Below are positions 22,072 to 61,213 of a stretch of 64,000 bases of DNA, one piece after another. Source of the stretch: Trichopria drosophilae (Eukaryota > Arthropoda > Insecta > Hymenoptera > Diapriidae); assembly GCA_030407085.1 (NCBI GenBank), contig CM059587.1:40465001-40529000 (forward strand), in the 5' to 3' direction. The translations under genes and the position numbers were made by a program. How positions within the stretch are numbered: the stretch's first letter is position 1; the number at the start of each line of letters is the position of its first letter. The notes under the pieces are model-generated. The model ran no database searches. It was not told the DNA's origin and saw nothing but the letters and a program-made list of their open reading frames with translations.

Positions 22072-25000
22072 TTACAAATAACTAAATATAATCTCACGTC
22101 CATTTCTTTCTTGAACTGGCCTATTATTGTTTGTGTCGTCATTGTCTAACTTGATTTTTCGAAATTCTGCTAACTGGAAGAATAAAATTTTATTAAATGA
22201 GTTCCAATATGACATAGAATATCTTACCAAATAGATATTTTCGAGACATAAAATATTTCGATACGTAAAATCTTACGGCCTTGTGTCGAACATTATTTTT
22301 CGGTACAAGTTTCGGTTCATTTTTCACGTCATCCGTGAAATTTCATTTTAAAAGTAGGCCGTAAAATCGGATTTTACGGTTATAGTTCAGAAACAGATGT
22401 TTTCATAACAAGGGCATAAAAACAGCTGGAGGCGATAGCAAAACCTTCCGGAGGGTATCAGTTATCCCTCCTGATGCAAAAGTGTTTACGCCCATGACAC
22501 GAATATGATTTTTCGACATAGTGTGTATAAAATTCGAGTATAGAGGTTACCTTTCGGTCGCTATTGCAACGATGTCTTATACATTAGACATTTTTGGATA
22601 CTGAAGATTCAAATTTACGCTACGTGTCAATGGAAAACATACTTTTCTAATTAAAAAAGGCATAAATTATTAATCATAAAAGACACCTACTTTTCTTAAT
22701 TCTGGCTTACAAAGAGTTGATTTAGCTCAAAGATTTTTTACACATATGGAAATTAATATGATGGAACGTGTGCAGCGAAAAGTTCTTAGATTCCTTGGGA
22801 TTAAGTCTGGTCATCGTATGCCGCGTTTGGATCACAATTACAATGTCATTGCCAAAAATTTTAAGTTTCCAACTATTAAATCATATATTGCATTCTTAAC
22901 ATGATGTATCATTTATAGTTTATCGCATTTTAAAGTTTCTATCAGGCGCCGTCTTGTCATGGATTATTTCCACACCATGTTCCAATTGGAATCCACAGAT
23001 TTTTTTAATCGACCTACCGAAATAATTACATATACTTTTTTGCTCCATTCATATACTTAAGCACGCGTGGAAGACTTCAAATGTAATTATTAGAGATTGT
23101 ATTTCTTAGGGTGGATTTAAACATTATCATAAGAATATTTATATGAATACTATATATGACACCAGCTCGTCGGCTAAGACTAATAAATGTTAGAAAATAA
23201 TAATATTGCACAATTTATTTAAAATAATTATTGATATAAACAAATTACTTTTAAAAAAGGATAATTTTCGGAAGAAATTCGGTATATCAGGGTTTTCGAG
23301 GTTGCTGATTACGAATACGGTGTGAAATTTTCAAAATTGAAAATGGCGGATCCAATATGGCCGTCCAAAAATTTTAAAAAAGGTCATATTTGGTATAAGG
23401 AATTTTTTAAGTAGTTGATGACGTATCTGCTATTAAGTTTTCAAAATTTTTAATGGCCGAACTGATGTGGTAAATGAAAATTAAAACAAAATATATTTTA
23501 TCAGAAATTTGATCTTTGGGCGTCAAGGAATATTTAATCACAAATAATTGAAATTTTCAATGTTTTTATGAAGATGCATGTATTTGGATTTCTATCTTTC
23601 ATAATTATAATTTAATGCAAAATTTTTTTTAGTATACATTTGTAAATTTTATTGACCAGAGCTTTTAGTCAAACCCAGAGACATATACGAGGACGTGCCT
23701 GTTGAAGTCACCATTTTTTTATTTTGTTTTTAAGTTTTTATTTTTTGAGTCGCATGTTTGACAATACCATCTCTTGGAGAATAAAAGTCCGCTTATGAAC
23801 CGATCATTATGCATTTTTATGTGAATTTCAGATTGACGCGGGTAAATGGATACTTCTAATGGAATAGAAATTAATTTAGATAGTCGAGTTATTGCAGATT
23901 TGACCGATGAAATCTTGTTGATCATTTTCATAGCGTATTCTTTGATAATGTTTTTACACGTATAGATTCACTCATATCTTTGAAAATTAATAACGTACCA
24001 GCTTATGGAATCAATATATCAAAATTATTTAAAAAAAAAATGAAAGTTTTTAAAAACTGTGGTCATATTGGATCCATTTTAAATTTTGAAAATCCCACAT
24101 GGGGTTCGTAATCAGTGGCCGAAAGAACCCCTATATAGCAAATAGTTGAAAAATTACTTCTTTTCTAAATTTTGGTCGGCTATATCGGATATGCCATTTT
24201 CATTTTTTAAAACTGCTCAAAAGTGTCAAGAACAAGCGCGAGGGCATCTTCACTTTAGCTAAACTACAGGCGTCTACCCCTAACTTGCAGCTTGTGAGGT
24301 TAGGAAACTGCTGTTACATTTGGCTCCCACTAATTCGGATGTAAACTCGAATTTCACTCCCACTATGACGAAAAATACATCGTTATACGGTGCAAAACTA
24401 TCTTAGTAAAAATGGAAGCGTACTCTAGGAGGAAGTAAAGCGTACAAGAAGCGTCCATTAATTGTACGGTTTAAATACATTCGGAAAAAAAGTAAATGGT
24501 TACTAAGCGTTTACAAAGCTGACTTTGAATAAAGCGAATTAGAAAAATAACCTTCCCTGGCGAGAATTGAAAAGTAAAACACGGAATTACAGAAAATAGT
24601 TACATTAACTATTTCGGTAGTAAACAAGACCATGGCATTGTTCCTTTTACTATTTTTTAATACTTAAACCTTATTTCAATACTTTATCCCCTTACATAAC
24701 CTCAAACGTACCGTACTTTTACAATCGAATAGTCCCTTTTAATATTCGTGGATAATAAAATAGATGTAACAAAATTAATTAAACGAAAATAATTACAATA
24801 TTCTGAGTTGTAAATATAACATACAATTAAGAACTTTTCACGTTGTTAATTCTACATTATTAGATGTTACAACCACTTCTACCTTTTTTCACGGTTCGGC
24901 CTTTTTAAACTGCGTGTGTACAAAATCACGCGTTTGAACAACTTGAAATGCGTTAAATGATATATCGAATTTTTAATCGGGTTAACCTGGCCGTATCCCA

Positions 25001-28000
25001 GCCCTGTTTCTATTGGGGTCAAATCGCACTAATTCTACTCGGGATCTTCAGGAGGAATAACTTTGTATACAATGTGTCCTCTTCTTAAACGCGAATCATC
25101 ACGTAGGTGGTGGAGAAAAATATTATTTTAAATGTACAATAACATCATCATACAGAAAAAGCTTGAGTAGCTTTATACAGTGTACGAATGCGCTTATTGA
25201 GCCGTACAAATCGTAAAATGGCTTCCCGGGAAATATGCTTCAATTTTTACCAGTATGCATAATTACGTAATAACTTAGCATCATGTATAATTTATAAAAT
25301 TAGTCATTGTTACGATTTTAAATGTTTTTAATAATCTTTTTGCTTTTGAAGAACACGTACCGTAGCTTGATTGACCATTGGTGAACTTTTATATATTAAC
25401 CAAATGACTGTTTCAGTGCAAGGTGGTGACGTTTTTGACCCATCGTATTTGGCGTAAGGAAATGTCTTATTTTTTAATAGTTCCGTTGAACTCCAAAGGC
25501 TAAGAGGGTGTTGTTCTAGTGGTATTGAGGTACCTGGTTCCTTTATTTGTGACAGAATTTTACCAAGTACATCAAATCCTTTAGTTATGTTATCAGGCTC
25601 GGCTGTCAACTAAAAGTAAGAAACCTTAATTCTATTATACAATATAAAAACTCTGAATTATTTTCATCGCATTTAATTAAAAACTGAAACATTTCCAGAT
25701 AGTGCGGACATTATATAATGAGAGAAGAAATTTATAAAGGTTAGTAAAACTTTAAAGATCATTCCATGCTAAAAATATCAAAGTTGTGGCCGATGTAACA
25801 GAATACAATGAAAAAGAAACATTTGAAAGGTATATATGTAAAAAATATTCTAGTGAAACATTTTTCTAATATTTTGAAAATGGCGGCCGTCACAACACGA
25901 TTACTCAATTTCTTAAAATTGCGTTAACTATTTGTCTAATTATCGGATTTAAATGTGACGACCGGCAATTTTTAATTAAGTGCTTTTATTGAAAAATAAA
26001 TTAATTTTAAAAAAATTGTCATTTTGTTATGAAATTGACCGAAAATATTTTTTAACTTTAATTTTGGTACTGAGCTTGTGTTTTTTTTTGAACCCGGATT
26101 AGGTATTTTGAAGAAAATGATCCCTAATGTCATTATTATTGAAAGTAGAATATATCTTCATTTATGTTTTCTGCAAAATCAAAACGTGTTTAGGGATACA
26201 GAAACAATGATTGAATGGAGCAAACAAAACACTACAAATGAGTTCTGACATATGACAGAAGAAAAGTGTTGCAACAACTGGAATGTTACTTTCGTGATTC
26301 AGAATTAAAATACATGCTATAAAATTTGGGTTAGATTATTAGGCACTGGTATCTACAGTTAAAAAGTTCTAACGGACAATCAAGATTTCTAGGTTAAATA
26401 TAAAAATAGAAAGTAATAATAGTAAGAATGGTACTGATAGCAACTATCCAGTAAATAGTTTTTTTTTGTATCAAATTCTATAATATACATACTCGAATGT
26501 CAGGAAACAGTAAATTTAATCATTTTATTTTGTTTACTTCAAAACCTAGCAAAATTCCTCCGTGTGTATTACACGATCTCCATTCATACAAACCTCTGCC
26601 AATTGAGTTACCATCATTATGCCATCCGATTTGTCTTGTGCGCTTGCGATATTACCATATTCTCTTTTATAACATGTCAACTGCAGTTCCATGGGTGAAC
26701 TGTAAAAATGATAATTTCACTATTTTTATGAAAAGTGTTATATATATCTATAAATAGTCACAAGTTATATTTAATCTTTTTGAACATATTCTTCATGTAA
26801 GGAAAAAAATTGTCTTAGAAATTTAACCATCCGAAGTGAAACAAAAATGAACGGGGACAAAATTCAACAATTCGGAAATGGAAGAAATAAAAAGATATAA
26901 CACCCGGTATAAAATTGAATGTAGAAATTGAAAGCTTTATTTCTGTTCAGAAACCCTTTGAGCCACAGACTGCCAGCAGTGCACCATAATCATTCATTAT
27001 TTTGTATACTCCTCGAGTGCAAAATGAAAGATTTCAACTCATTTTTTGCCTCGCTATCCTTCTGACAGTTTATACAAATGACAAACTTACCTTATATGAT
27101 TACAAATTTGTTAAATATGCTAACAACTGACCTTTAGAAACTTAAATAATTAACGTAAAAATCGTTTACCCGTTAGGTTATATAAATTTCAAACTGAGCT
27201 TGTAGGGGCTGTTTTAATTAAAAATGAAAAATGTATGGGTCAATGTGGTGGACGAAATAAACAAAATTCAAACAAAATTTTTCAAAGAAAACATACTCGA
27301 AATAGTTGCAGCAACTGAAAATATTTTTGAGGTATTATGCCCAAAATTTTTAGTGTAATTTATTATTTTTTAATTATTATTTTTTAGTCGGTTCAACCAT
27401 TTAGTTTTTTCCGTGCATCCTTACTTTTCTTGGAGACATTTCATATAATTGATTATAAAAGTCAAAACAGTTTTCGTCAAATTACATCTTTTGTTATTCA
27501 TTTTTATTTCCATATTAAATAACGAATATCACCTTTTTCCATTAACAGTATGCTCGCTGCCAACATCGTCGGTTGATCCCCATCGAAACTGCAATCTGGC
27601 ACATCGGTAATCGTTTTTCAGTGGACCATCCCTGTATGATACTGGGTTTTCATCGGCATATTCTGCATCGATTTGCACTGTCGTCAAGAAACAATAAATG
27701 AATATATTACTAAATGTTATAATATGAGGATTAAATTCTAATTTTATATTGAATACCAGTGTGACCGGTGTTAGTGATTTGCAAGTGTGATGGAAGAACA
27801 TCCATTCCTTCGATAGTCAAATGGCCAATGTTGTTTTGCCAATCTGCTGACTGGAAATCGAGATCAATCGGCGATTGCTTCTTTCCACCACAAGACGGAT
27901 AAAGTTGTGCCCATTGTTTGGTATTTTTATAGTTGTAATTTATTTCTGCTCAATTATATTAACGCATATACTGATGTGATATCGAATATTTAAAATGTAT

Positions 28001-31000
28001 TAATTTTGTTACTTCGTTATTTTGGTGAATTTACGATTAACATTCGCAGTATTTGTCATACAAACATGGTTTGGAATAATAAACTATCCTCATGAGACCC
28101 CTTTAACTTTTTAATGCTAGAAATATAGTTTTCGAGACTCGTTAATTCAGTGCAGTACCAATTAGAATAAAAACGTCGGAAAAGATTATTCCAAATCTAT
28201 ATTTGCCAATATTTTGGCATACTCATTCGATTGGCTTAGGTTCAAATGCATAAAAACTCATTTCAAACGGCATTTTTACCTTAAAATACCTGTCCTTTTC
28301 ACCTGCCTGGTTTTAAAATAGTGCAATTGGAATACGAAATAAAAAATTACTAGCTTAGATAGAAACTTAATTAACGTAAACTACAACGGATGAACGTTCG
28401 TTCAATGTTAACCCTTATTGACCCAATTTGTCCGTTTTTTTCTGTCAATTTTAAGCACGGACAATTGTTTTTATTTTTGCTAAAAGAAATCTAAACATTT
28501 GTAAATGGGTATTTTCAAGTGTACTCTTTCAGAATCCGTCACGAAAATTTTGAAAAAACCACCCTTTACTACCCTACTTCGAAAGAGGTCTTAGCAGAAA
28601 ATGTAAAAATAATAAAGTTATACACACAAGAAATTCATTTTTCGCCGTAGAGGAGTTATGCGACCACACCTAAAATGAATTAAAAACATGATAAATACCG
28701 TGCTACTTCCGGTCTTCATCCATAAAACTATCAATGATGAGTAGAGATTATTTCATAACTTTGTCATACGTATTGTCTTTAGTATAAAAGCTGCTCATAT
28801 TTCTTTATAGAACTTAATTTATTTGAACTTTTTCGTATCAAAAATAGTATTTTTGAACAACTGCCGATTTTCACCCCTATCTTATGGAGTGGTAACGAAA
28901 TTTAACCTTGGATAACAAAATGAAAGATATTTTTTCAATAAAATTTTTTGTAAAAGTGTTATTTTAGGTGTGGTCGCACAACCCCTTTGATGAAAAATTA
29001 ATTTTTTTGTATGTATAACTTTATTACTTTGACATTTTGAGCCGGAGTTTTCGTGCTGTCAATTATCGCCAAGACCTCTTTCTCAGCAAAAATACGATTT
29101 AAACAAAAAATTATCTTAAAAAATTATATTTTTTTTAAATTGAAAAATAGGGTAGGAAATGGTGGTTTTCAACATTTTTGTGCCGGATTCTGAAAGAGCA
29201 CACTTGAAAATACCAGTCTACAAATGTTCAAATTTTTGTTAGTATAAACAGAATTGTCCGTGCTTAAAATTGACGGACAAAAACGGCCAAATAGGGTTAA
29301 GTTAGTGTTTCTCATTTTTGTCACGAAATAAGTCAAACTTAACATTTCGATGTGACGACCACTCTGTTGTTCCTAATACTTTCTCGTTCACTATTTCTGT
29401 GAAAGATTAAGGCGAGATCATGGTTAGACTAGCCAGACATAATGATGTTTCGCCAGACTGATTTTTTTTTATACAGTTTGGCGACTCCAATTTTCTGTTT
29501 GAAAATGAATATAACGGTTTTTATATTTTAATCGGTCTCCCTTTTATCTAGCGTCGATCATTATGTCGAGTTTTATTGATTTTATGCAGAATAAGCAAGC
29601 TTTTTCGTAGAGAAGTTGATGTTCTGTCACTTTGTCGAAAACATTCTTTGGTCGAGCTGGTTCTTTGAAAATAAACGCAAAAAACGTGTATTTTTCACTA
29701 TTTTTAAATCGTTTTCCTTAATATATTTCTATTAACTCAAAAAACTAATCAGATGTAAGATAGGCCATGCCAAACAAGAACGTCCTACGTACTTTGTAAT
29801 CTGTATTTTTGTATTCGAATTATCGCATGTACAAAAAAAAAACACATTCAGACGGACGAGTGGCCAAGTCGGCCAAATTTTATACCTCGTCTGACTTATG
29901 TTCAGGTTCGAAGTAATAAAACACTAATTACACTTATGTAGGTGTACCCGTATGAGTACGATATTAGGTTTATTTCGATAGGTCATTCCATTCTCGAGAT
30001 GGAATTAAAAATGTCCGCCATCCATGGGACGTTACAATGCCACGAAACGTTACACCGACGATTTTCGTAATTTATTTATCTTAAAGTCTAAATAATTAAG
30101 AACATAATATTATGTCACTACGATTAAACAAAAATTTACATTTTACCATTACTAGTAGATCAAAAAGATAATTTTTTACAATATTATGACATGCATGTTT
30201 TTACTAAGTAAGAACTGTAACGTTTCGAAAGAAAAAGAAATCAAAATTAAATAACACACTGTACGAAAGTACTACTAATGTCAACGAAAATCAAATGCAT
30301 GAATTTCTTTAGTTCCGGAATGTTACATTTCCTTTTTTTATTCATTTTTCAAGATGTAAACGTGTACAAATATAATTTTGACTTGGTGTTATAATAATAC
30401 GAAATATCACACATGAATTTGGTTTATTTTAAATATGTAATACATCTTACAAAGAAAAAGAGCGTATCTTCATTGAAAAAAGCTTTAACTTTATTTTAAA
30501 AACCCACAATATATGTAAACTTCCACGTCAAAACCTTGAAAGTTGATTTTTTTAATCTTGTTGAAGGAAATAAGAAGCCACCATCTTAATTTTTTTAGAT
30601 TTTTTCAATTTAGAAGCTAGAATTTTTGTGAAAAAATCCGTTTTTCTAAGTAACTCTACGGTTCTATTGGTCGTACCTGGACGAATAAAAATTGATAATT
30701 TAGGATTTTTTGTGGCTATCCACAAATTTTTATCTCGTTTCAACATGCTATAAATTTCGAGATTGATGATTTCAAATTGTATGACACGTTTTCTTCATAA
30801 AATTTTCATGAATTTTTAACAATAAAACAAATTTTTTAAGGTAAACACCCGCAAGTATTTTTCATTTACATTACACGCGATATTTCATTCATCAATTTTT
30901 AATTCTAAATGATTGTTAACGACCATTAAATATATTCGAACGGATGCATACTTTGTTTTTAATGATTTTGACAAATTTATATTGTCAAATTTTTTTGCAG

Positions 31001-31511
31001 TTTTTTTAAATGATAATTCATCGCTTGAGTATTTTTGAATACTGCACATTTTTAAATTACGATATCTAAATTTTCATTGCTCGTACAGAAATGTATAAAT
31101 AATACATGTATAACAACGATATTATTGGGTTATTGCAGAAAACATTTTATTGTTAACCGTTTCGATTTTTATTTTACTTATTTATTTAACATTAGAAACA
31201 ATACTTTCACAAAATATATTAACGAATCTTTGATCCAACATGTTCGAGAGACAGTGAAAATGGACAGAATTTTTTTTTATTATTGGCAGAATTTGAATTA
31301 TTTTTATATTTTTAGAGGAAAAAATCAGTTGAGTGTAACTTTATGAAAATACAGATTCTATAATTAAATATATCAAATAATATATTTTATAATAAGAATG
31401 AGCAAAGATGCATGGAGAAAACGTACCGTTTTCACAATCCGATTGTGTTGTTATTTGGACGGCCATCAAAATTACACAAAGTACGGGGAAACATAAATTG
31501 CCGAAATACAT
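22072..31511 (-). CDS. CA-B: secreted carbonic-anhydrase-like protein without zinc ligands (six exons)
   Basis: Exons: 31511-31427, 27945-27757, 27677-27533, 26699-26594, 25609-25361 and 22173-22072, giving 291 residues in frame with the same phases as CA-A. The first exon encodes a clear signal peptide (MYFGNLCFPVLCVILMAVQ). The fold is intact: CGGKKQSPIDL, GSEH gate motif, SKTSPPC loop, and RPVQERNGR near the C-terminus. All three zinc histidines are replaced: Q121 and R123 (LQFRWG where active enzymes have xHFHWG) and Q146 (MELQ). The Leu198 equivalent is Lys and Thr200 is Ser, while the shuttle histidine is kept (NTGHTV). Carbonic anhydrase activity is therefore not expected. No frameshift or internal stop is present, so it is probably a working non-catalytic protein. 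Function unknown. Confidence 0.9.
22255..22520. repeat. Cluster of TTTTACG hairpins in CA-B intron 5
   Basis: Several short stem-loops follow one another: CCGTAAAATCGGATTTTACGG at about 22,350, CCTTCCGGAGGG near 22,443 and others. Similar clusters occur at 13,506, 47,088 and 54,373. Confidence 0.45.
22730..23200 (+). pseudogene. 3' fragment of a non-LTR retrotransposon in CA-B intron 5
   Basis: A plus-strand broken frame starts MMERVQRKVLRFLGIKSGH and goes on through RLDHNYNVIAKNFKFPTIKS, the region just after the reverse-transcriptase thumb. It ends near an AATAAATG signal at about 23,180. It begins in the protein close to where the fragment at 18,625-20,000 stops. The two flank the last CA-B exon. 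Confidence 0.65.
23279..24150. mobile_element. Fold-back element with the ATGGCGGAT module
   Basis: The left arm (GGGTTTTCGAGGTTGCTGAT, then GAAAATGGCGGATCCAATAT) and the right arm (ATTGGATCCATTTTAAATTT, then GTTCGTAATCAGTGGCCG) are inverted partners. The module is shared with the elements at 812 and 9,644. Ends are approximate. Confidence 0.55.
24970..25043. mobile_element. Remnant of the GC-rich CCCAAGTAGAATT element, in CA-B intron 5
   Basis: Short similarity to the element at 47,296-47,585 (TATCCCAGCCCTGTTTCTAT against its TATCCCGACTGGGGTCC region) plus the right terminus AATTCTACTCGGG. The left half is missing. Confidence 0.5.
25610..27532. other. CA-B introns 3 and 4
   Basis: Apart from the coding exon at 26,594-26,699, these introns are AT-rich and hold no recognised element. 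Confidence 0.35.
28408..29300. mobile_element. Long fold-back piggyBac-type MITE in CA-B intron 1
   Basis: TTAA at 28408-28411 and 29297-29300. Terminal repeats start CCCTTATTGACCC at the left and, complemented, CCCTATTTGGCCG at the right. Both continue into GTCCGT, TGTCAATTTTAAGCACGG and farther. The arms pair over roughly 400 bp (for example AGAATCCGTCACGAAAATTT against AACATTTTTGTGCCGGATTC). No transposase is present. Confidence 0.82.
29850..29922 (+). pseudogene. tRNA-like fragment (A and B boxes)
   Basis: GAGTGGCCAAGTCGGCC resembles the A-box arm of a class II (Ser/Leu type) tRNA, and GGTTCGAAG matches a B box about 40 bp later. The expected acceptor stem does not close, so it is at best a tRNA relic or the head of a tRNA-derived SINE. 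Confidence 0.25.
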
Positions 31512-40394: not shown

Positions 40395-40431
<37 letters not shown>

Positions 40432-40668: not shown

Positions 40669-43600
40669 TTATGAATAACTATATATAATTTCCCGCCCAT
40701 TTCTTGCTTGAACTGGTCTGTAGTTACACTTATCGTTGTTTGCCAACTTGATTTTCCGGAATTCAGCCAGCTGAAATAGTAATATTATTATTTCATACAC
40801 AATAAGATTGAACAAAATGTATTTAAACTATTCAATGATTTAATTTGAAAGAATGAAATTGAAATTCGCATAACCATCGTTTATTGCGCACCGATAACAC
40901 AGTCCTACACGGTTTTTCGAAAGTGAAGGGTTATTTTCGAAGTTATTTTTGGCTTAGCAGTTTTTGGCTACTTTTCAGGTTATGTGCGGAAGACACATTT
41001 TAAGGATTTTTTGTTGTTGTTGGATCACATAGTCTCTTTCTCTTTAATATGAGAATCACAGAGTTCAGTTACGACGTTTCTTCACAAGACGCCATTTATT
41101 ATACACATGTAAACAAAATTTACCTTGAAATGCCCTTGGAGGGCAATTCAATATTAGGAACCTTTATAAACATAAACAACTATATAGAATTTGTATATTG
41201 ATAACTAAAAACCCCTTTGATTATTGTGAAAAAAAACTGAATTTTTTGGGCGCAAAACCTCAAATATTTAAAAATCCTGTTGTGGTGGATCAATTCGTAT
41301 TCTTCACAAGAAATTACGTTGGAAATTATTTTCCATTTTTCACCAACTGCCATGGCCCTATTATTTTCAGGCCTGTGCAATGAATTAAACACAATGAACA
41401 GGATATTATCAATTTTAATGAATTTCTGGAATACTGGCCGGAAAGAGTAGAATATAAAGTTTTTTAAGTAGCTACTGTGTATAAGATTCCTGTTATATGA
41501 TGAGATATTAGGTTGTCCAACTACAAGTTCTCGTGTACGACTAATACTTTTTATAGTATTAATCTATTTAGTAGTCGTAACTAGTAGTTGGACTAACCAA
41601 TTTCAAAAGACCTACGCACCAAAGATGAATTAACCAGGGGTAAACGTTCATTTACTGCCCAAATCACTGTTTCTGAACAAGGTGGAAAAGTTGTAGATCC
41701 TTGGTATTTCGCGTAAGGAAACGTTGTTTTTGGTTCGACTTCCAATTTGTCCCAGTAGCCAACCGGAAATGGATTCACTCTTATTACGGTACCTGGTTCT
41801 TTTATTTGTGGCAATAGTGGAACAATTATGTTGAATCCTCTAACTACATTATCAGGATCGTCCGTCAACTGAAAAATTAACATTGCATTCATCTGCTTAT
41901 AACATCATCACTTATATTCTTGAAAAAATGTTCGGCAATAAAACATTTTAATGGCTTCATACGTACGTCAACTAATTGGGATATTATCATCAAACCATCC
42001 AATTTATCCCACGCATTGGAAATATTGTCATACTTTTTTTTATAAAATAGAAATTCGAGTTCCATCGGTGCACTATCAAATAAAACTATCATAATAACAC
42101 TATCACATAACATGAACTACATCCAAGGTATTGCTATTATGTTGTTAATTTTACTCTAAATAACCGATATAATCTCAATAGATGACATTTTTCTAAGGTA
42201 GAACAAGGTACTCAAAATCTCTCATTTATAACGTTATGTTGAGTTTTTTGTGTTTCTTTGGAATTGAATTTGAACAACGTAGGTAACAATAAATATCAAA
42301 AACAAATTTGTCCTTGACATGATCTTCAATAGGATACTCAAAGTTACATTCGAAGTTATAGTTGAACATTACTTGCTTCAGATGTTAATGACTTTCGGCT
42401 GAACTTCAAGGTTATGCTTGATATATGATTTTAGTTTATAATTCAATAAATAATTTTCCTTTTTCTCGATTTCTCGTGATAAAAATAGGTGGTTATTTAA
42501 CAAAATTGGTGAATTTGAAACGATGTCAATGTCTTCATCGTATTTCTCATTCAAAATTATCAATCTTATATTCACTGCAGGTACATACATTATGAAATAT
42601 GCTAAAGAATCCGGTTATATTATTAATGCGGGGAAAATCATTATAAATTAAAGTAGTTGATGACATGTTTTGTAAAACTTCACCTTTTACCATTTAAGGT
42701 ATGCTCGCTCCCAACATCGTCTGTCGAACCCCAGCGAAATTGCAGTTTGGACCATCGGAAATCGTTATTAAATGGACCGTTCCTAAATGATACCGGATTT
42801 TCATATTCATACATTGCTTCAATTTCAACTGCATTTGTAAAATGTCAAATTCAAATGTTACTAAATTCACTATGGCATTAATTTCTACAGTCTACTTGCA
42901 ATTCATACGTAATCATTATTATTTACCAGTATGACCGGTGTTAGAGAGAAGCAATAATGTTGGGGTAATATCGATCCCTTCGAATGTGATATGACTAATA
43001 TTTGTTTGCCAGGCGGCATGTTCAAAATCTATGTCGATTGGCGATTGTCTATGTCCACTGCATGTTGGATAGATTTGCATCCAATCTTTGGTATTTGAGT
43101 AATTGTAATTGAATTCTGCAAAAGTGTCCTTTTATGTCGTACGCATCTTAAGGATTAAATTACTGTTATATGAATATATACATTACAATAAAAGTCTCTC
43201 AGTGCATATATATGTATCAAACCTTTTCATCCCATGTCATTTTCAAAATTTAATTACAAATTTTAAAACAATTTTTCACCAAGATAATCAATATTTAATT
43301 AAAAGTGAATATTTCCAAGAGAAAGCCTGTTAAAATCCATATTCAATAAATTTTTTTTTTACTACCCGTATTAACGAGAAATTAACCAAACAATGCAATA
43401 TTGAAAATTCGAAAAAATAAAAAAATACTCTAAACATTTTTTATGGAGGAATAAAAATTGTTTGTATTAGCTAAAAGTCAACATTTACATACCCAAATGA
43501 TAATATGTGATGAATATAGAAATTAAAAAATACGTTCGAAAAAGTGCGTTTCTTTATATGGAATGCCCTATATGTATTTCAAATTCATAACATCAGATTC

Positions 43601-45940: not shown

Positions 45941-46007
45941 TCGTTATCGTCCCCGATGGCCCGGTTATCGTCTTCCAGTTCATTAAGGAACTATTATTTT
46001 TTATTTT

Positions 46008-46742: not shown

Positions 46743-49700
46743 TTAAACAAATGTGAAGACTTCTACTTTTTGATCAATTGTACCTTGCACAGGGCGGTGG
46801 TTTTTCTTATCTCCATAAGATAAATTGATCTTTCTAAATTCCTTCACCTGAAATTTAAATTAAATCTATTAATATTTATTATCTTTTAATTAATTACAGT
46901 CTATTTTAACTAATTTGTCACCCCGAATAATTGATAAAATCCCAAATAAGGATTCAATGCAAAATTATTGGACATTCCAAGGAAAAGTAGACTGATAGAC
47001 AGTTTCTGTTAGGATAATAATATCAGTTTGTAACAAAAATACTTTTTGATACACGTGTCTCTAAAGTAGACACTTTACAGACTCCTTTTAGTCCGTAAAG
47101 TGTGATTTTACGGACTGATCTCTGCACTTTACGGACTAAAAATAGTCGGTGAAGTGCCTACTTTTGCGAACAGTGTATAAAAAAATAGTGTTCGCTCCTC
47201 GGCCGTAAAATTGTATGGTTTGGAGATTGTGCGATCTCCACTCAGTCTGTAAAATTGCTTTACGACCTAGGATCGAGAGGTACTATTTTGAGGTACCCAC
47301 GTAGAATTCTGAATCGAGCTCTAATCGAAACCCAGCCGTGACCTTCCCGGGTCACGCTTCGCCGACTGCAACTTGATCAGACTTGAGATACTAACCGGGC
47401 TATGTTCGGAACCCAACTAGGTTACCATATAAGGTAATTGTTGTATTCCGAATCCGAATGGATCGGATAACCTCGGCTGGATTACATATCAAGAACACGG
47501 CTCGAATTTTTAGTTGGATAACCAGTCCGTATCCCGACTGGGGTCCTGTTTCTACTGGGATCAAATCGGGCCGATTCTACTTGGGTACTACTCATGGACA
47601 CCCTAAAAGTTCCGTACCTCATTTTCGTCTTTGTAGACATTTCGACTTTTTACGATGGAATGCACTCATACTAATATAATTACTATAATAAAATAACTGA
47701 TAACAAATTTAATTGATTTGTATGTCGGTGAACGGTTAAATAATTTCTAATAAATCTACCTTCGCCTATTAAAAGTTTCATAGTAAAGATGGAAGTAATT
47801 CAACAGAAAATAAGCACTTTTTGTGATCGTTTTTAAATGTTTACATATAATAAATTTACATATACGATCTTAAAAGACCGACATCATCGAAAGAATATTT
47901 AATATAATATAAGTTATAATAGTAAAATATACATACGAAGGCAGCCGTTACTAATGGAACAGGCTCATGTACTATCCATGATACAGATTCTTTACAGGGT
48001 GGGAATGTTATAGAACCTTTATAATATCCATAACGGTTTCCAAGAAAATTTGGATCTACAAAATGCTGCATTGGAAAAGGATCCACCTTTATCGTACTCC
48101 CTGGTTCTCGAACTTGCGCTAAGAGAGGCTGAATAATTTGATATCCTTTGAGCATTTTTTCGGGGTCATCTGTCAACTGAATAAACAAAGTTAAGTATGA
48201 GTTAATTTTCACTTTATAATTAGAAACTATCCAGCTTACATGGTTTTTGGGGCCACTGAAGATGGATTTGCCATCAGATTTAAAAAATTCGAAATGGCCA
48301 ATCAGATATAAAAAGGTATCGTAAGTCCTTAAATTTCCAACTATCGTGTGCATTAAATTCATAGAATCTATTTTACTTAATATAATGTGTAAAAGGACGT
48401 CATAAAGTGTGAAAAAAACGAAAAAAAACTCCGTATATCTTCAGTCTCTATTATTACTTTTATTAACAATTATACTTTTGTAACGAATTCGAATAAATCG
48501 CTTATATTAAATATCACGCCTGTTTCTGTCGCTCAAAAAAATTAATTCCATTAACTTAGTTTTGAAAAGCTATCACAATTGGTAATTTACAAAATTCTGT
48601 GTTTCATAGATGACGCTGCTATTTAAATTGTCAGTATAGCGTGACTGAAACGCTGCCACAATATGGCAGATTTGTTGAAATGCACCTTCTGTACTTCTCA
48701 TTTTAGTCGAAAGTTATCACGTCCGATTACAGTTTGACAACCGTAGAATTCATTTCTAAGCTTAACGAAACTTTAGTTAGTACCATTTATTTGTAGAAAC
48801 ATCAATATCTGCGAAAGGTCGGTTTTAACGCTAGAATTAATGTTTACCACCCTACTCGACATCTAAAAAATTTCAGACTGGTCCGTAATGATGGTCTGAA
48901 ACAGATCCCTATTTTTGTGTATCGTAATTATTTATAATGTGTTTTCAACGAGTATAAAATGCTATTACTAATGATTGCTGACAACAATTGCACATCTTTA
49001 TTTCAGAAATGGGAGGAACATCCAAGGGAAACACGAAAAAGGCATATAAATTTCAAAAGCGTTAAGGAAAAAAATATTTACCTCTACTAGTTGAGTAGAT
49101 GCCATCATACTTTCAGATGCATCCCATGCTGTTGCTAGACTGCCAAACTCCTTTTTGTAAAAGAAGAATTGTATCTCCATAGTTGAGCTAAATCAGTATT
49201 TTGATGTCTTTTTCAAATCATTCAATATATATATTAGGTATTAAATTAAATATGTAGACTATATTTTTTTCGAGGTGGAAACGCGTAATTGTGAACGATA
49301 TAAGATGTTAATACCATTAGTTGATAATATATTAGGTTTTTATGATTTCCACATTATGCATAAACTGTTGTTAGAAAACTGTTAATAATTCAAAGCACTA
49401 CCCGGTTAATTAGTCAGTTGTCAAAAACGGTGAATTTAAATTACTTTTTATAAACTTTTCTCAGCGGCATTCGGAAGATGCGGTTTGATATATATCGGAA
49501 ATGATAGTTTGTCAAAGCAAACGTTAATTTTTGTAAATGCAATAAACAATCAAATTAAACGGAATACATTAGTTCACTTGGGATTTACATGGTTTGAAAC
49601 ATATCTTACAGAAAGTCATTAGAAAATACTGAAGAGGTATTACCTTTATCGACCCACATGCTACAATGTTGATTTTGTGGGCAATTTTCAGATACCAAAA

Positions 49701-52700
49701 AATTCAAAAGAATGATTTTTTTTAAAAACCTAACATTCAATTTGCTTATTTAAACGAGTTCTACAGCACCTTAGATTCGTCATTTAAAATTTACCTTTCA
49801 AAACATTTAACATGGGCATAAATAGTATGTTAATATACTTCTTAATACAATTACTCGAACATTTAATTAGTGGTGTTATAAAACATTAAATATGATTTTA
49901 CGTTTTTCCATCCACAATGTGTTCACTGCCAGCGCCGTTCGTTTTTCCCCATCGGAAGGTAATAGTTGAAAACTTGTACTCTCCGTCCAAAGGACCACTG
50001 CTGTATGTCAATGGATTATCGCCATCATAGATGACCTCCAATTCCACTATATTCCCAACAATTGATTTGCCATACATTTGCTCTTACATGTTGCGGAAAA
50101 TTTATTTACCTGTATGCCCGGTATTGTTAAGAAATATTATCGATGGAATGGCTTCGTATCCAACTCGAACCATAGTTGAGTTTTTTGGAGCAGGGACGTC
50201 TTTGAGATTGACCGTAATCGGTGATTGCCTTTGGCCACCACAGCCAGGGAATTTTTCTACCCATTGTTCGATGTGTTCGTAATCGTAAATTGTTTCTGAA
50301 AATGATTTTTACACAACTTGATTGAGTGTTATTATATATTGTTAAGTACCTATAAAGCGTCCATCGCTGTTAATATGTTTAGTTTTGATACCAAATTTAA
50401 CTTCTTAATAAATAATTTCTTAATGGTTGGTGACAATGAACGTAATAAGGCATGTGAAGAATGATGAAGTTGTTGAATTATGAAAAAAGGCTGCATGATA
50501 ATCATTAAAGTTCATTACCTACCATCATTATTCAATATTATCCATCAAATGAGAAGGGATTAATTTGAACCTTCGCTAGGATTCGAAATAGTCAACAATA
50601 ATTCAGATCAACAACATTTTCCTCACAAGCGCGGAAAATACATTTTTATACAGAAAAAGTAATAAAAATTCGCAGAAACAACTTAAAAAGAGAGTCATAA
50701 CGAACATCCTGATATTAACTGTTCATAGGGTGCGTAATACCGCAAGATTTTCAACATTGTCAATTACTGTGTACATACAGTTAGTCGCCACGAGATCTCG
50801 CCAAGCTTGCTTAATCCAGTTGTTTAATTATATTAATAAAATAATTTTCTCACACTCGGAGCGCAAAATACTTCACTATATTACGGGAGCAAAACAGTAC
50901 ATTCTCTCCCTTGGAAGCAAAATAAATATATCCAGGAGCAAAATAAGTTTCTCCCACTGGTCGGCAAATAGATATTTTGCTCCCTGGTTGCACAATCTAC
51001 CATTTGTATACTCGTAAACTTTGTTTGATCCCATAAACATCAATGGGTTATGGGCCCAGGCTTGCTCAAAGTCGTAAAAAGTAATAGGAAGTTAAAAATG
51101 TCAAGAATTGTCACGAAAAAGTTTCGCGTGCGCAATACTGGCCGAATATACCGTTAGTCACACGTGTTACAATGGCGCCGGAGCCAATTGGTTTAAGAGC
51201 GGTTACACGCTTCGATGGCACCAACTTCCTATTGTGGAAGTTTTAGATGCACGATATATTTGAAACCTATCGACCTCACAAAATCGTGGTAGGAACTGAA
51301 GCTAAGCCGGATGCGACGTAGAGAATTTTGAATCCTGGTGTACTCGGAGTACACAAGCAATTTGCATCATCTCTACATCAGCGGATTACAAACAGCTCGA
51401 ATTTCTGGTGACGCGTGAAAATGCATTTGCACTGTGGACATAGTTTTGTGCCACACATTAACAAAACAGTACTGTGAACAAATTAACGTTAATGTCGCCT
51501 TTTAACGATCTCAAGATGATGCCTGACGACAGCGTTGTACAGAAGCAGAACGTGGCTAAGATTGAGAACATCTCACGATATCAGTGAAGACTTGTCTGAG
51601 TACTTTTCCGCAAAAGTTTGACCCAGTGGTGACACCGTGAGATAGCGTTCGTGAAAAGGACTAAACGCGATTGAAGCTCGAACGTTTCATCAAAGAGAAG
51701 ACCAGGCAACAACGGGGGAATGACAATCAAAACAGATCCTACGAAACTGAGTAGAATGGTAGTAAAAAAAACATCTAATTTATTATCATTGAATATATAT
51801 TGAAAATATCAAAAATACATCGAGTAAAACCATAACTTTCGAAAATTCAAATGCATACAGCTGGACCGATATAACGCGTTTATAGTTTCGGAAACTTCTT
51901 TAATCCAGGATTTTTTTTAATCGCAATGAACAAAACGTTTTATGTTACTACTCAGGTGCTTCTAAGCACATGATCTTTAGGCGCGATTGGTTAGCCGATT
52001 TTCACGAAATAACAAATGAAACTCTTAATCTTGGAGAAGATTCGCTATGCAAAATTAATGGTCGTGGAGTGATAATAATAAAATGTTTTGTCGAGGCCCA
52101 ATGGAAGTACGGAAGACTTAAGAATGTTTTGTAGGTCCATCGCTATGAAGGAATTTGTTTTCAACAGGCGCGTATACAAATAAAGGACATTTCTTTTCCT
52201 TGTTTTCGGAAAAAACGACGTGGAATCCAATTCAATAACATACCGAAAATTAATGGTATTATATATATAACACGCTCATTTGTATTGTATATTGACTGTA
52301 GCGATGCTATTCAATGAAGACTACCTTTCGTAAAAACTAGTGTAAAGGCTAATATTGTAAAATCTGTTGGCAGTTCTCGGTATTGTACAGTTCAAAAGGA
52401 CGATTGTTCAAGCTATTGGACATTCTACTTTTTGCAAAATAAAACGACGCCTTCGCTAAATTTAAAGAATATAAATTGTCCGATGTTAGATCATATGAAA
52501 AAATAAAACATTAGTTTTGAACCGTCCGCGCCCTATGTTCACGAACAAAATGGTAGTGCTGAACGAGAGATTACAACCATAGCCGAATGCGCATGATAAT
52601 CAAAATGTTGTTTTAAAAGGCCCTTCGAGCAATTCACATTATAAATCGATCCCCATTTTCATCTTGCATTTTTAAAAATGTCTGTAAAACGGACTGGAAA

Positions 52701-53156
52701 TAATTCTAGCAGAGATATAGTCCCTAACAAAATACTACACGTCAATTGGCCACATTAGCGAGAAGATAAACCATCATACATAGTTACAACCCGTAAATCA
52801 AGTTTACCGCTACTAGTTAATGGGCATACATACAAAGTTAGGAATTGGAGCAAACAGCTTATTAAGAAATTTAGCTGACAAACAAAATTTTTAGCATTAC
52901 ATATATGATATAAAATTATTGTCGGTTCTTTGCAAGGCTTCCTTGCACGTGTATGCTATTGAAATTCGTTTACAACTTTTTGAATTATTTTTAATGAAAA
53001 TATTTATTAAGATTTCGATTTAACACTTTCTCATGTGTTTAGATTCCTACCATCTTCAGGATCCGCTTCTACTAAGAAATTCGTCAGTAAACACAACAAA
53101 ACTACCAGAATCCAATAGTACTTTTGAAAATGAGCACATTTTACAATGTATAACAT
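46743..53156 (-). CDS. CA-D: secreted carbonic-anhydrase-like protein without zinc ligands (six exons)
   Basis: Exons: 53156-53051, 50295-50110, 50046-49902, 49187-49082, 48176-47937 and 46847-46743; 295 residues in frame. The N-terminus has a short polar lead, then a hydrophobic signal segment (YYWILVVLLCLLTNFLVEA). Zinc ligands are replaced by T127, R129 (TITFRWG) and Q152 (MEIQ). Kept are the shuttle histidine (NNTGHT), GSEH, CGGQRQSPI and FPPC. The loop reads SITFPPC (Thr199 kept, Thr200 to Phe). The C-terminus (RPVQGTIDQKVEVFTFV) departs from the NGR ending of CA-A to CA-C. It is very similar to CA-E in exons, introns and 5' flank, so the two are a recent tandem duplicate. Intron 1 is 1.8 kb longer than in CA-E because of a Copia remnant. 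No pseudogene lesions. Confidence 0.9.
47086..47275. repeat. Row of stem-loops (TTTACGGAC family) in CA-D intron 5
   Basis: Consecutive hairpins are visible: AGTCCGTAAAG with its complement further on, GAACAGTGTATAAA paired with ATAGTGTTC, and GGAGATTGTGCGATCTCC. The block resembles those at 22,255 and 54,373. Confidence 0.5.
47296..47585. mobile_element. GC-rich MITE CCCAAGTAGAATT, in CA-D intron 5
   Basis: The ends CCCACGTAGAATTCTG and GATTCTACTTGGG are inverted partners. The interior is rich in GGGTT, CCCGG and GGATCGG motifs. The related copy at 57,336-57,557 occupies the same intron of CA-E, with similar flanking sequence on the right side. Confidence 0.7.
51140..52875 (+). pseudogene. 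Decayed Ty1/Copia retrotransposon in CA-D intron 1
   Basis: Plus-strand fragments in polyprotein order: a Gag start (RFDGTNFLLWKF, then MHDIFETYR) near 51,210; a protease/GAG-pre-integrase part (ASKHMIFRRDWLADF) near 51,960; and an integrase core piece (HEQNGSAEREITTIAE) near 52,540. Many stops and frameshifts separate them and no long terminal repeats are evident. It is absent from the matching intron of CA-E. Confidence 0.75.
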
Positions 53157-56428: not shown

Positions 56429-57144
56429 AACTTAGTTTAGCCCTAACTTACGGGTCTTAGACAACGTTTCCATAAAAAAATGCGTTTTGGCAATTTTCCG
56501 AAACCCGAGTGCTTTAAAGGTTAACGTAATGAAAATTGATACCCGTGTGGTTGATGATAATTCAGGTTGTCAATTTTTTATCGAACTACCTTGTAATCTC
56601 TTCAAAAGAAGCCCTGATTTAATTGCACTCAGAGATAAGTAGGTTTAATCGGTGAATTAGACGGGCTGCATCAAAGTTGTACTGTACATCCAGAAAACTG
56701 TATTTTAATGTAATTCAGTTTATATTAGGTACACAGGCAGCCTTGTAAAAGATAGAATCACAAAACACAAGTGAGGTTTGAAAATATACTAAACATTTGA
56801 AGATTGTAAGCATCAATACAAATGAAGTTGATAAACGTTTTCAATTTATAAAAAACAAAAACCAATTAATAACGTTCACATTTAAAGATAGATTATTTAA
56901 CAGAATATGCAGTTATCATTTCGTGTTTATATATTCCTTGTATTTATTAAATTCATAATATAAGGAAACTGGTAGATTATATGGAATCAGTGATATTGGT
57001 ATCATCTGTATGTTTTATTTTTATATTGGCCAATGTTATTTTTTCATTGAGTTGTTTAACGACTAATATATACACTAAGCTTTGAATGTAATATACAATA
57101 CGCATATATAAGTTACAAATTCAATATTTTACAAAAACTTTACA

Positions 57145-60100
57145 TTAAACGACTTTGAAGACTTCCACTTTACGATCATTTGATGCTTGCAAAGGGCGGT
57201 TATTTTTCTTGTCTCCATAAGACAAATTGATTTTTCGAAATTCCTCGACCTGAAATTGATATAAAACATAAAACTCATAATAGTCATTATGATTTCATTT
57301 AATTTAATATATTTTAATCAAGCGTATGTTTACTTCCCAAGTAGAATTTTTAACTGTACCCAGACCGAAATTCAGCCGGGTTCCCCTAGATAAGTCGGGA
57401 TATGACCGAGGTTAACACGCTCCCCTGACTAGAGCCCGGTCAAATTTGAGATGCTGACCGGGTTATAGTCGGAACCCGGCTAGATTCCCCCGCAGCTGCA
57501 TCCGAATGGATCGGGCTAGCCCGGCATTCGGATCAAATGGGGCAAATTCTATCTGGGTTATGGTATCTGAATATTCCATACATCATTCTCATATTTGCAG
57601 ACACATATGGAAGACGCGAATACAATTATTATCGATATAGATTAATTATCGATACTAGTCCAATTATACGTTTAGGAATTTATAAAAATTGCATTTATGA
57701 TTAACAAGTCAACCATGCACATATTTAATCGTACTTAAAATCGACAAAAGATGAAAAAATCTGTATTATTCATTTTTAAATTTCCGTTTTTTAAGACGTT
57801 AGAGAAAGAACGCATACGTTTAAAATCAATTGGTGTATATTATCTAATTAAAAATAGTATATTACGATACAAGTGCGCGAAGTAGGTGATTTGCGCACGA
57901 GTGTAACGAATGCGAAAGTTACCTACAGCGCACGTATATCGTATTCTATTTTTTTTTGACTACGTGAGAGAAATTCAATTTCGCGCACGCAGTTAAAAAA
58001 AATATATATTAGGGTACATAAAAAAAAATCGATTTTTCGAAATACCTTACTGTGGAAGAAGTTGGTTTTCGGCAACACGAATAAGTGACCAAAAACCCTA
58101 GGTTGAGAAATGGTATTCGGTAAACGCCTTGAAATTTATCGTGGGATTTTAAATAGGAAAACACAATTTTTGTTAACTCCCAAGTACATTAAATAATGTG
58201 GAAAAGAGTGAGGAATTCGATGAAAAAATATTTCGGGTGCCATTTTTATCTATATTTATTATATTTAGTTATCGCGCAATAACCAAAAAAGAAATATCTC
58301 CTATTTAAAATCCCATGTTAAATTTCAAGGTTTGTCTACTATTTCTCAGCCTAGGGCTTTCGCTCATGTATTGGTGTTGCCAAAACCAACCTTTTTTGCA
58401 CTGAGGCATTTCTAATTTCGAACAATCGATTTTCTTATGCACCGTATTATATATTTAAAAAGACTGAGTATTTGTCAACATTCAAAAATACCGTTAATAG
58501 CGAATGATTGGTATAAATTATGATAACAAATTACATACGAAAGCAGAAGTTACTAATGGAACAGGCTCATGCACGATCCATGAAGCAGATTCCTTGCATG
58601 GAGGGAAGCTTATGGAACCTTTGTAATATCCAACACGTTTTCCAGTGAAATGTGAAATTGCAAAATTCTGCATGGAAAATGGCTCCACTTTTATTGAACT
58701 GCCTGGTTCTCGGACTTGCGCTAAAAGAGGCTGAATAATTTCATATCCTTTGGGCATCTTTCCAGCATCATCTATCAACTGAAGAAATAAATCGGGCATG
58801 AATAAGTCTACTTTAGTTTTGATGATATTAATTGAAGATTCCCGACTGAGTAAGACTAGGAGTCAAGCAATTCATCGCAAGCCATTACTTGGAATGCAAG
58901 ACATAATATCATCTACATACCGATAAAAAAATAATGGCTTTGTAAACAATCCACTTCCAAGCCATCCATTACTATATCAGTTAAAACAGGAGAAAGTAGT
59001 GAACCCATTGAGGTGCCAAAATTCTGTTTATAAAAGTTGTTGAATTGAAAAAAGGTGATATTCGTAATAAATTTTATCCCAAAAATCATTATTTACCTCG
59101 ATCTCAATATTTATTACATTCATACCTATGGAATCTATGTATGTCGGCATATATTGGGATAAGCGTAACAAGCCAGATTGAGGCCCAGGGTATGGTTGGG
59201 AAAATCTAGTTTGGGGCCCCGCCTGGCTTCACAAGGGTCGTAATAGATATATCAGTGATCTTTCGTTGTTGACTTGGGAATCATACATTTAAATGTTTAA
59301 TTTTAAGACTATTCCATATATTTACTAATTTAGATACGGGCGAGCTAAAATAGAATTCGGTTGATATTCGATTTTCTTAAATCGATTGCGACCTTTGGCT
59401 TTCAGAGAAGACCAATGCTCACCTCAGCTAAGTGAGTAGATACCATCATGCTTTCGGGTTCGTCCCAAGCTACTGAAAGACTCCCAAACTCTTTTTTGTA
59501 AAAGATGAATTGAATCTCCATAGCTGGGCTGAAATATAATTCATTGTATTTTTATATTATCTATCATTCATTAAATGTTTATATATCCATTATAAAATTG
59601 TTTAAATGATCATTCTTAAAATTAGACGAAAAATTGGAATTCTGAATATTGTGGACTTCAGGATCAATTAAATCCTTTCAATTAAAAATAAGTTCTTGAT
59701 ATTAAATCAATTGGACTATATCATTTTAAAAACGATTTTACTTTTTTCCATCTACGATGTGCTCACTGCCCGCATCATTTGTTCGTCCCCATCGGAAGTT
59801 TATAGTGGAAAACTTGTAATCTCCATTCAAAGGACCACCACTAAACGTTACTGGATTTTCAGCATTAAAGATGATCTCTAATTCGACTGTGCATTATTAT
59901 AATTAAATTGTGTGAATTTGCAATAGTTTGCGTTGTATCAATATGTATAATTCAATATGCTCGTACACGTAGTTAATAATAAAAATTCACTTACCTGTAT
60001 GCCCGGTATTGTTAAGAAATACTATGGATGGAATGGCATCGTATCCTTCCCGAACTATAGGGGAGTCTTTTGCAACGGGATCTTTAAGATTTATTGCAAT

Positions 60101-61213
60101 CGGCGATTGTCTGTGGCCACCACAGCCAGGATATCTTTCCACCCATTGGTCTATGTGTTCGTAATCGTAAATTGTTTCTGAAAATGATTTTTACACAACT
60201 TGTTTGATTGTTATTAAATTCTGTTAAGTACCTATAAAGCGGCCTTCGCTAGTTAATATGATTAGTTTTAATACCAAAATTAACTGCTTATGGGCTCTGA
60301 ATTGATCAAATAATTTCGTAATAATTAACGATGACTGGTGATGGACGTAATGAGGCATGGTATGGGATGATAGTGAACGGCAAACGATAATCAGTTTTCT
60401 TCATCAATATCATAATTACGAACATCATTATTATAAACTTTAAAGTTCATTATTACCGATCTTTGTTCAGCAGTACCCATCATCCGTGAAATGATTAATT
60501 TAATAACAAGCAGTAACATAGAATGACTCAAAGTAGCAGTTTATTTTTATGAATAAGAATCCAAATACCTAACTAGTAAGTAATTTCTAAATTATTCGCA
60601 AATATTTCTCACTTATATCACAAACTTATCCTTATTTAAAATTATTTTCTTTATAGATTTCTAATTTTTTAGATAAGTATATTTTCATTTTAATACAAAT
60701 TTTGCCACTCTACGCAAAGTATATTGTTATTTATACAAGAAAAAGAAACATATTTTCTTTACCACCATAAATAAGGACCTTCGAGCGTGCTGGTGGCTGC
60801 ACAGAAAGCGAGGAAACTTTGCGTCGTAATCATTAACTTTTTAGACCTTTTTTACAAAATTTCTTTACAGAAATAAGTTCCAAGCTTTCAGGTTTAATTT
60901 TTGTTAGTTACAAGCAACAACTCGTAGTCATATTACTTCACTCGGTAGCCTTGTGATGAAGATCATATTTCTGTACAGAAAGGTTGAAAAAAGATCTAAA
61001 AATTGCTTCGTGCATTTTCTCACTTTTTTCGATACAATTTTATTGCTTTTACAAAATTATTTGAGATCTTCTCATAAAAGGTTGTTAACATTGATTCCAA
61101 TACCTACCGTCTGCAAGGTCCGTTTCCGCTAAGAAATTCGACGGCAAGGACAGTAATACTGCCAGTGCGCAATAATACTTTTGAAAAGGGGAAAATTTTG
61201 CAATATAAAACAT
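57145..61213 (-). CDS. CA-E: secreted carbonic-anhydrase-like protein without zinc ligands (six exons)
   Basis: Exons: 61213-61108, 60177-59995, 59886-59742, 59528-59423, 58778-58539 and 57249-57145; 294 residues in frame. The signal segment follows a short lead (YYCALAVLLSLPSNFLAE). Zinc ligands are replaced by N126, R128 (TINFRWG) and Q151 (MEIQ). The shuttle histidine (NNTGHT), GSEH, CGGHRQSPI and FPPC are kept. The loop reads SISFPPC, so even Thr199, the residue that orients the zinc-bound hydroxide in active enzymes, is Ser. The C-terminus (RPLQASNDRKVEVFKVV) matches CA-D. It is the most upstream member of the array. No frameshift or stop. Function unknown; a binding role is an inference from other inactive members of the family. 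Confidence 0.9.
57336..57557. mobile_element. GC-rich MITE CCCAAGTAGAATT, in CA-E intron 5
   Basis: Ends CCCAAGTAGAATTTTT and AAATTCTATCTGGG are inverted partners. The interior shares CCGAATGGATCGG, GTCGGAACCCGGCTAG-type and GAGATGCTGACCGGG motifs with the copy in CA-D intron 5. Confidence 0.7.
57854..57950. mobile_element. Palindromic mini-element in CA-E intron 5
   Basis: TACGATACAAGTGCGCGAAG and its partner TACAGCGCACGTATATCGTA form a long GC-rich hairpin. A GCGCACGCAG segment just outside (57,970-57,990) suggests that the original element was larger. Confidence 0.5.
58012..58447. mobile_element. Fold-back MITE in CA-E intron 5
   Basis: The termini TATTAGGGTACATAAAAAAA and the complement of CTTATGCACCGTATTATA pair. 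The arms then pair for nearly 190 bp (CCCTAGGTTGAGAAATGG against CTATTTCTCAGCCTAGGG, GGGATTTTAAATAGGAAA against its complement). Confidence 0.75.
58870..59160 (-). pseudogene. Penelope-like element reverse-transcriptase fragment in CA-E intron 4
   Basis: The minus strand reads FYKQNFGTSMGSLLSP, then LTDIVMDGLE and, after one frameshift, FYRYVDDIMSCIPSN. FGTxMGSxLSP and YVDDI are reverse-transcriptase blocks of Penelope-like elements. The preceding sequence (IEVNNDFWDKIYY) fits the same frame. It is 5'- and 3'-truncated. Confidence 0.65.

Follow-up and report, generated by a model that had tools for sequence, protein, structure and literature searches.

What can a carbonic anhydrase gene still encode once every zinc ligand has been replaced? 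The question is raised by a window of 64,000 nucleotides (nt) from Trichopria drosophilae (contig CM059587.1, here C6, positions 40465001-40529000; genome of 936 Mb in 509 contigs), which holds five alpha-carbonic-anhydrase (CA) genes, all on the minus strand. The neighbour CA-A keeps His94/His96/His119, while CA-B, CA-C, CA-D and CA-E (B-E) have lost all three histidines. We propose, with a probability of roughly 0.58, that B-E encode secreted pseudoenzymes, which would retain both the alpha-CA fold and the pair Cys23-Cys203 and bind a partner outside the cell, with Arg96 perhaps standing in for the zinc. This reading is based on open gene models, the replacement of all three ligands, the grouping of the four genes in one clade, selection on the sister pairs, signal-like first exons in three of the four genes and a catalytic cavity that is not favoured by conservation.

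Zinc-ligand positions

Gene models were built with our own spliced profile-to-DNA script, and their ends were then fixed by hand. The following features were obtained (window coordinates; aa, amino acids; residues at positions 94/96/119 in one-letter code):

CA-A, 10483..15065, minus strand: 278 aa; exons 15005-15065, 12405-12593, 12197-12338, 12021-12126, 10657-10899, 10483-10578; H/H/H, comparison gene
CA-B, 22072..31511, minus strand: 291 aa; exons 31427-31511 (signal peptide), 27757-27945, 27533-27677, 26594-26699, 25361-25609, 22072-22173; Q/R/Q
CA-C, 40669..43115, minus strand: 263 aa without exon 1; exons 42927-43115, 42684-42828, 41967-42072, 41620-41868, 40669-40770; Q/R/E
CA-D, 46743..53156, minus strand: 295 aa; exons 53051-53156 (signal peptide), 50110-50295, 49902-50046, 49082-49187, 47937-48176, 46743-46847; T/R/Q
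CA-E, 57145..61213, minus strand: 294 aa; exons 61108-61213 (signal peptide), 59995-60177, 59742-59886, 59423-59528, 58539-58778, 57145-57249; N/R/Q

The first codon modelled for CA-C was assumed to begin with G, after the example of B, D and E; the end of the fourth CA-E exon was placed by hand to match the 106-nt length of this exon in A-D. All five genes belong to Pfam family PF00194, with full-length matches of 164-245 bits against a curated cut-off of 27 (E = 1.7e-72, 5.6e-61, 1.3e-56, 4.7e-48 and 1.6e-48 for A to E). The first-pass annotation of this DNA had placed four genes at 22072-61213, and the spliced models on the minus strand bear this out.

Upon alignment to human CA2, whose residue numbering is used throughout, each of B-E has 0/3 of the histidines that characterise a catalytic alpha-CA. 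The codons for positions 94, 96 and 119 are CAG/CGA/CAG in B, CAA/CGC/GAA in C, ACC/CGA/CAA in D and AAC/CGA/CAA in E, located as follows (all minus strand):

27583..27591: CA-B codons 94-96, Gln-Phe-Arg (residues 121-123)
26681..26683: CA-B codon 119, Gln (residue 146)
42734..42742: CA-C codons 94-96, Gln-Phe-Arg
42054..42056: CA-C codon 119, Glu
49952..49960: CA-D codons 94-96, Thr-Phe-Arg (residues 127-129)
49169..49171: CA-D codon 119, Gln (residue 152)
59792..59800: CA-E codons 94-96, Asn-Phe-Arg (residues 126-128)
59510..59512: CA-E codon 119, Gln (residue 151)

Arginine occupies position 96 in 4/4 genes, with one synonymous codon difference among them, and position 94 varies (Q, Q, T, N). 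Alignment and codons thus match exactly the triple loss, with Arg as second ligand throughout, that had been read from the DNA before. The retention of cysteines and core motifs claimed at the same time is equally confirmed, since Cys23, Cys203, Glu106, His107, Glu117 and Trp209 are present in 4/4 genes, together with His64. Other positions are altered (in the order B, C, D, E): residue 92 reads R, K, T, T; 135 reads Q, W, W, W; 198 reads K, T, I, I; and 200 reads S, F, F, F. The roles of CA2 residues are general background. Those of the ligand, proton-shuttle and gatekeeper residues follow PMC4981384, as far as the portion of that paper available to us goes.

Conservation of the catalytic cavity

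We compared sequence identity at 21 cavity positions (ligands omitted) with that at the other aligned positions, drawing 5000 random position sets as reference; the 21 positions are a list that we assume from the CA2 literature, the sequence pairs depend on one another and the sets are small. Among the intact array genes A, F, H, I and J, the cavity is strongly favoured (149/210 = 71% versus 678/1932 = 35%; 0/5000 sets as extreme). In B-E the corresponding values are 69/126 = 55% and 578/1157 = 50% (1408/5000), and for the sister pairs B-C and D-E alone 27/42 and 264/387 (3703/5000). Comparison of BC with DE gives 42/84 versus 314/770 (929/5000), a mild lean to cavity conservation. Two further sets of dead copies, introduced below, behave similarly: K-L with 10/21 versus 90/186 (2782/5000), and the N/O group with 77/180 = 43% versus 700/1312 = 53% (4349/5000). 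Including the ligands led to a similar outcome. The catalytic pocket is mostly stripped of special protection, and the whole protein is still protected.

This result bears on the best of the alternatives, namely that B-E are neofunctionalised enzymes whose pocket catalyses another, zinc-free reaction in the manner of the club-moss CA-like proteins. PtCAL-1, with two histidines lost, and PtCAL-2, with three lost, have zinc-independent biosynthetic activity (PMC10700139, in the part available to us), and His64, Glu106, Thr/Ser199 and Glu117 persist in B-E. A shared reaction should keep the pocket, however, and in B-E the cavity has no clear conservation advantage over the remaining positions, in N/O even less; CA-B also differs from C, D and E at positions 67, 135 and 200. 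A new enzymatic function would seem unlikely for B-E. As PtCAL-2 is catalytic despite its triple loss, the triple loss is not the distinctive trait that the first-pass annotation had made of it, and the pseudoenzyme reading, which we continue to prefer, is likely rather than certain.

Wider set of CA paralogues and history of ligand loss

The array runs beyond the window and comprises at least 12 CA genes (A-L). Seven of these, F-L, lie at C6:40529001-40689000, with K and L on the plus strand; the zinc site is intact in F, H, I and J and reads Q/H/Q in G and K and R/H/Q in L. Including CA-A, five of the 12 genes are intact, and intact and dead copies are interleaved and have a common exon plan. 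Genome-wide, the PF00194 search gave 108 exon matches, and by our own row count the exon that carries the PPC motif is matched at 41 distinct places, some of which may be gene fragments.

We typed 28 genes at all three ligands, a non-random set picked by what could be located; T, M2, N3, N4 and S2 were typed by eye from translations. Modelling of M2 is weak for its later exons, and for N, O, Q and S the models cover part of each gene. His/His/His is found in 8/28 (A, F, H, I, J, M3, M4 and T, the last at C6:41.18 Mb), and 20/28 are zinc-dead (B, C, D, E, G, K, L, M1, M2, N1-N4, O1-O3, Q1, Q2, S1 and S2). Every dead gene (20/20) lacks both the 94 and the 119 ligand, and His96 is kept in 12/20. 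The eight triple losses comprise B-E, M2 (Q/K/Q), S1 (I/T/L), S2 (I/S/V) and N4 (I/Y/V). Seven more loci, read at 94/96 only and kept outside these counts, show Y/H, F/H, F/H, I/H, V/F and, in two cases, H/H. As such, the earlier picture of an isolated tandem family of four next to one intact enzyme does not hold. Copies outside the array that matter below are:

C6:5448360-5451088: M2, Q/K/Q
C1:216.57-216.61, C2:155.70-155.76, C2:174.84-174.87, C4:7.30-7.33 and 11.47 Mb: dispersed CA-like clusters

In S2 the GSEH motif reads GGHH. When about 5.8 billion predicted proteins were searched with the mature chain of CA-D, 139 candidates came up, none with E <= 0.001.

A tree that includes 16 dead copies next to intact genes was built with the ligand columns masked (M2, N3, N4 and S2 were outside it), and M2 was placed in a second tree. 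B-E form one clade with a support of 99.8/100 (100/100 in an earlier tree), within which (B,C) and (D,E) are sister pairs (95.3/99 and 99.8/100). K and L group with the intact J (99.4/100), and M2 groups with the intact M3 (99.7/100). The approximately unbiased (AU) test rejected one common origin for all 16 zinc-dead copies of the first tree (p = 0.003) and, in the second tree, a grouping of M2 with B-E (p = 0.0005). In view of these rejections and of the grouping of K and L with J and of M2 with M3, dead sites arose more than once, and the Gln/basic/Gln site at least twice. One loss event, as first supposed, therefore stands as one ancestral change for B-E, which share Arg96, and fails as an origin for all 16 dead copies. 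On the best tree B-E join the N/O/Q/S copies with weak support (83/78 and, in the second tree, 78/84), so that they may share their loss with these dispersed clusters on C1, C2 and C4.

G, K and L (C6:40582052-40680093) carry Glu92, a residue reported for CA-related proteins (CARPs), and the R/H/Q of L is a signature reported as frequent in cnidarian CARPs. Since K and L nevertheless group with the intact J, the CARP-like traits of G, K and L look like convergence.

The makeup of the family also allows weighing a second alternative, in which a dead copy would bind to or stabilise one of the active secreted CAs, for instance CA-A. The interleaving of intact and dead copies in one array with a common exon plan would fit such a partnership. 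It is opposed by the dispersed clusters, where 0/11 fully typed copies (N1-N4, O1-O3, Q1, Q2, S1 and S2) are intact, each being without two or three zinc histidines. Judged from these sequences, a role as partner of an active CA appears improbable, and a binding function of their own remains our preferred reading for B-E.

Selection and integrity of the genes

Pairwise maximum-likelihood estimates of the ratio of nonsynonymous to synonymous substitution rates (omega) were 0.214 for D-E (synonymous distance, dS, 0.64) and 0.218 for B-C (dS 1.28), and omega = 1 was rejected for both (twice the log-likelihood difference, 2 delta lnL, 61.0 and 68.1); for deeper pairs silent sites are saturated. 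A one-ratio codon model on B, C, D, E and I gave an omega of 0.19. The gain of a free-ratio model (lnL -3682.6 versus -3687.7, 6 extra parameters) is not significant and its omega for CA-E sits at the upper bound (7.4), hence its per-branch values were not used. With omega = 1 fixed on one terminal branch and all other branches free, neutrality was rejected for B (2 delta lnL 8.4) and D (5.1), and not for C (0.9) and E (0.4). The sister pairs D-E and B-C are clearly under purifying selection, and constraint for C and E alone cannot be claimed. The retention inferred in the first-pass annotation thus holds for the two pairs and for branches B and D, while for branches C and E omega = 1 was not rejected.

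CA-B, CA-D and CA-E start with hydrophobic, signal-like first exons, as read from hydrophobicity without a dedicated predictor, and those of D and E resemble each other. Exon 1 of CA-C was not found in the upstream DNA (window 43116-46740), and comparison of the CA-B exon 1 region with the DNA upstream of CA-C gave a best score of 29, no higher than the top score among 50 shuffles (also 29). Of the frames upstream of CA-C, the one most like a signal peptide carries an in-frame TAG (read by eye); a short frame that starts past this TAG, at 44110, stays open to a phase-1 GT. CA-C may start from a different exon, may no longer be secreted or may be at the onset of decay. Hence the supposed secretion applies to B, D and E, and the supposed full-length frames apply to these three genes and to the CA domain of C.

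These observations have to be held against a third alternative, that B-E are relaxed duplicates on their way to pseudogenes. The unrecognisable first exon of CA-C, the terminal branches of C and E and the free variation of residue 94 all point in this direction. The 23 modelled coding exons of B-E (6, 5, 6 and 6), however, have no internal stop or frameshift, their splice sites are GT-AG at every junction, in keeping with the matched splice sites described before, and omega = 1 was rejected at the pairwise values of 0.21-0.22; ongoing decay is thus about as improbable as the partner role, and we retain the view that B-E are pseudoenzymes. Exon lengths are conserved as well: the ligand-bearing exons measure 145 nt and 106 nt in each of the four genes, and the exon that follows measures 240 nt in D and E and 249 nt in B and C. 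An artefact of exon choice or sequencing error, conceivable for self-built models, is very improbable given that four genes agree, that the ligand region of CA-D aligns to CA2 without gaps across exons of constant length, and that positions 94/96 and 119 are changed in separate exons.

Other features of the window

GAC and TCATCG-type unit arrays at 40336-40430 and 45757-45895 lie less than 1 kb from the 3' ends of CA-C and CA-D. Further features are:

55427-56431, minus strand: open frame of 334 aa with a reverse-transcriptase match (PF00078, E 2.8e-11), between CA-D and CA-E
8426-9304, plus strand: open frame of 292 aa matching the ribosome-biogenesis protein RRS1 (PF04939, E 1.6e-51)
1930-3045, minus strand: open frames matching Dis3/Rrp44 exosome cold-shock domains (PF17849, E 4.7e-23; PF17216, E 1.1e-4)
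32001-36000: strong strand bias (GC skew -0.20 and -0.28) and several overlapping open frames
34147-34344: AT-rich tandem array

No telomere repeats were seen in eight stretches at contig ends.

Discussion

From established CA chemistry, B-E would bind no zinc and would be unable to hydrate CO2. We suggest that the buried guanidinium of Arg96, held by Glu106 and Glu117, may replace the zinc cation and stabilise the emptied core. The idea stems from the position of this residue, from its invariance in B-E despite a synonymous codon change and from the Lys96 of M2; this independent Q94/K96/Q119 gene, sister of the intact M3, points to a basic residue as a favoured replacement at position 96. The proteins would then bind an extracellular partner through their surface and perhaps also through the cavity, which in C, D and E is remodelled by Phe200 and Trp135. 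B-E would represent one branch of a wider set of zinc-dead paralogues, whose members may have diverged to different partners.

Several observations weigh against this interpretation. Dead genes that have no basic residue at position 96 (G, K, L, M1 and Q2) retain Glu106 and Glu117 as well, hence this retention alone is no argument for an Arg96 salt bridge; in N1, N2 and O1-O3, likewise without a basic residue at 96, Glu117 is replaced by G, S or A. His64 and Thr/Ser199 persist in B-E, and a surface role has no need of them. Furthermore, the missing exon 1 of CA-C, the terminal branches of C and E on which omega = 1 was not rejected, the mild lean to cavity conservation between BC and DE and our reliance on an assumed cavity list all count on this side.

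A broader proposal is more tentative, and we rather doubt it in its full extent: at least 20 zinc-free, mostly secreted binding proteins may have been derived here from the alpha-CA fold, and in B-E the zinc may have been swapped for an encoded cation, the buried Arg96 (Lys96 in the independent lineage), so that the dead site would now be a salt bridge inside the protein, leaving the entire surface free to engage new partners.

The roles of CA-related proteins are poorly understood. With adjoining intact and dead copies of like exon plan, at least two independent routes to Gln/basic/Gln and a measurable loss of cavity constraint, all in one genome, the notion of an enzyme fold reused as a binder becomes testable by comparison. 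Our findings also advise checking the histidines before secreted CA-like proteins are named pH-regulating enzymes.

Comparison with known systems

Acatalytic CA relatives have been reported from seemingly all animal genomes (PMC4539348), and the systems below are compared as far as the accessible portions of the cited papers describe them. Vertebrate CARP VIII, X and XI and invertebrate CA10-like genes resemble B-E in having a conserved, acatalytic alpha-CA fold, and CA10 and CA11 have Gln119 in common with CA-B, CA-D and CA-E (PMC2873310, PMC4539348, PMC4393933). The CARPs described in PMC4393933 all have Glu at position 92, which is found in the array genes G, K and L and is R, K, T and T in B-E. 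In the trees, B-E group with the array genes, apart from a single C3 fragment of 92 aligned residues that we took as CA10-like. Loci on C3 and C4 look CA10-like by an assumed resemblance, and CA10 itself presumably has Arg94 and a retained His96, neither of which occurs in B-E.

CA-like domains without CA activity are also part of RPTP-beta and RPTP-gamma (PMC2873310). In B-E, by contrast, a stop codon follows directly after the CA domain; neither a transmembrane segment nor phosphatase domains were found downstream, the maximum 19-residue hydropathy in the C-terminal half being <= 1.01. The CA-like domains of these RPTPs serve protein binding.

The club-moss proteins PtCAL-1, PtCAL-2 and PtCAL-3 are likewise members of the CA family, and PtCAL-2 shares the replacement of all three histidines with B-E (PMC10700139). 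They are plant (Lycopodium) proteins shown to act in scaffold formation, and within B-E the cavity is not clearly conserved.

Among arthropods, Daphnia has roughly 30 alpha-CA isoforms, of which a single radiation accounts for 25 and many stand in tandem, which is similar to the array described here, although ligand loss is not mentioned in the available part of that paper (PMC4393933). True-bug CAs have been found in saliva or as venom-gland transcripts (PMC12825922, PMC4773796); these are insect CAs as well, their ligand status not being given in the accessible text, and by analogy a salivary or venom role may be one place to look for the function of B-E. Our literature search, by titles and abstract openings, returned no report of an arthropod radiation of zinc-dead CAs.

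The closest likeness is to the secreted CARPs of cnidarians, which are described as recurrently reinvented under little structural constraint (PMC4981384). In the coral protein CruCA2, Tyr and Arg take the place of two histidines two residues apart (PMC4981384); this Arg probably sits at position 96 and thus provides a precedent. Like B-E, cnidarian CARPs combine the CA fold, secretion (a signal-like exon in B, D and E) and the loss of zinc histidines; the broad definition, a signal peptide and at least one lost zinc histidine, describes B, D and E with their hydrophobic first exons. They differ in having one or two ligands changed rather than three, and 20/28 typed paralogues are dead here. 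'Secreted CARP' in this broad cnidarian sense is hence the best fit for B-E.

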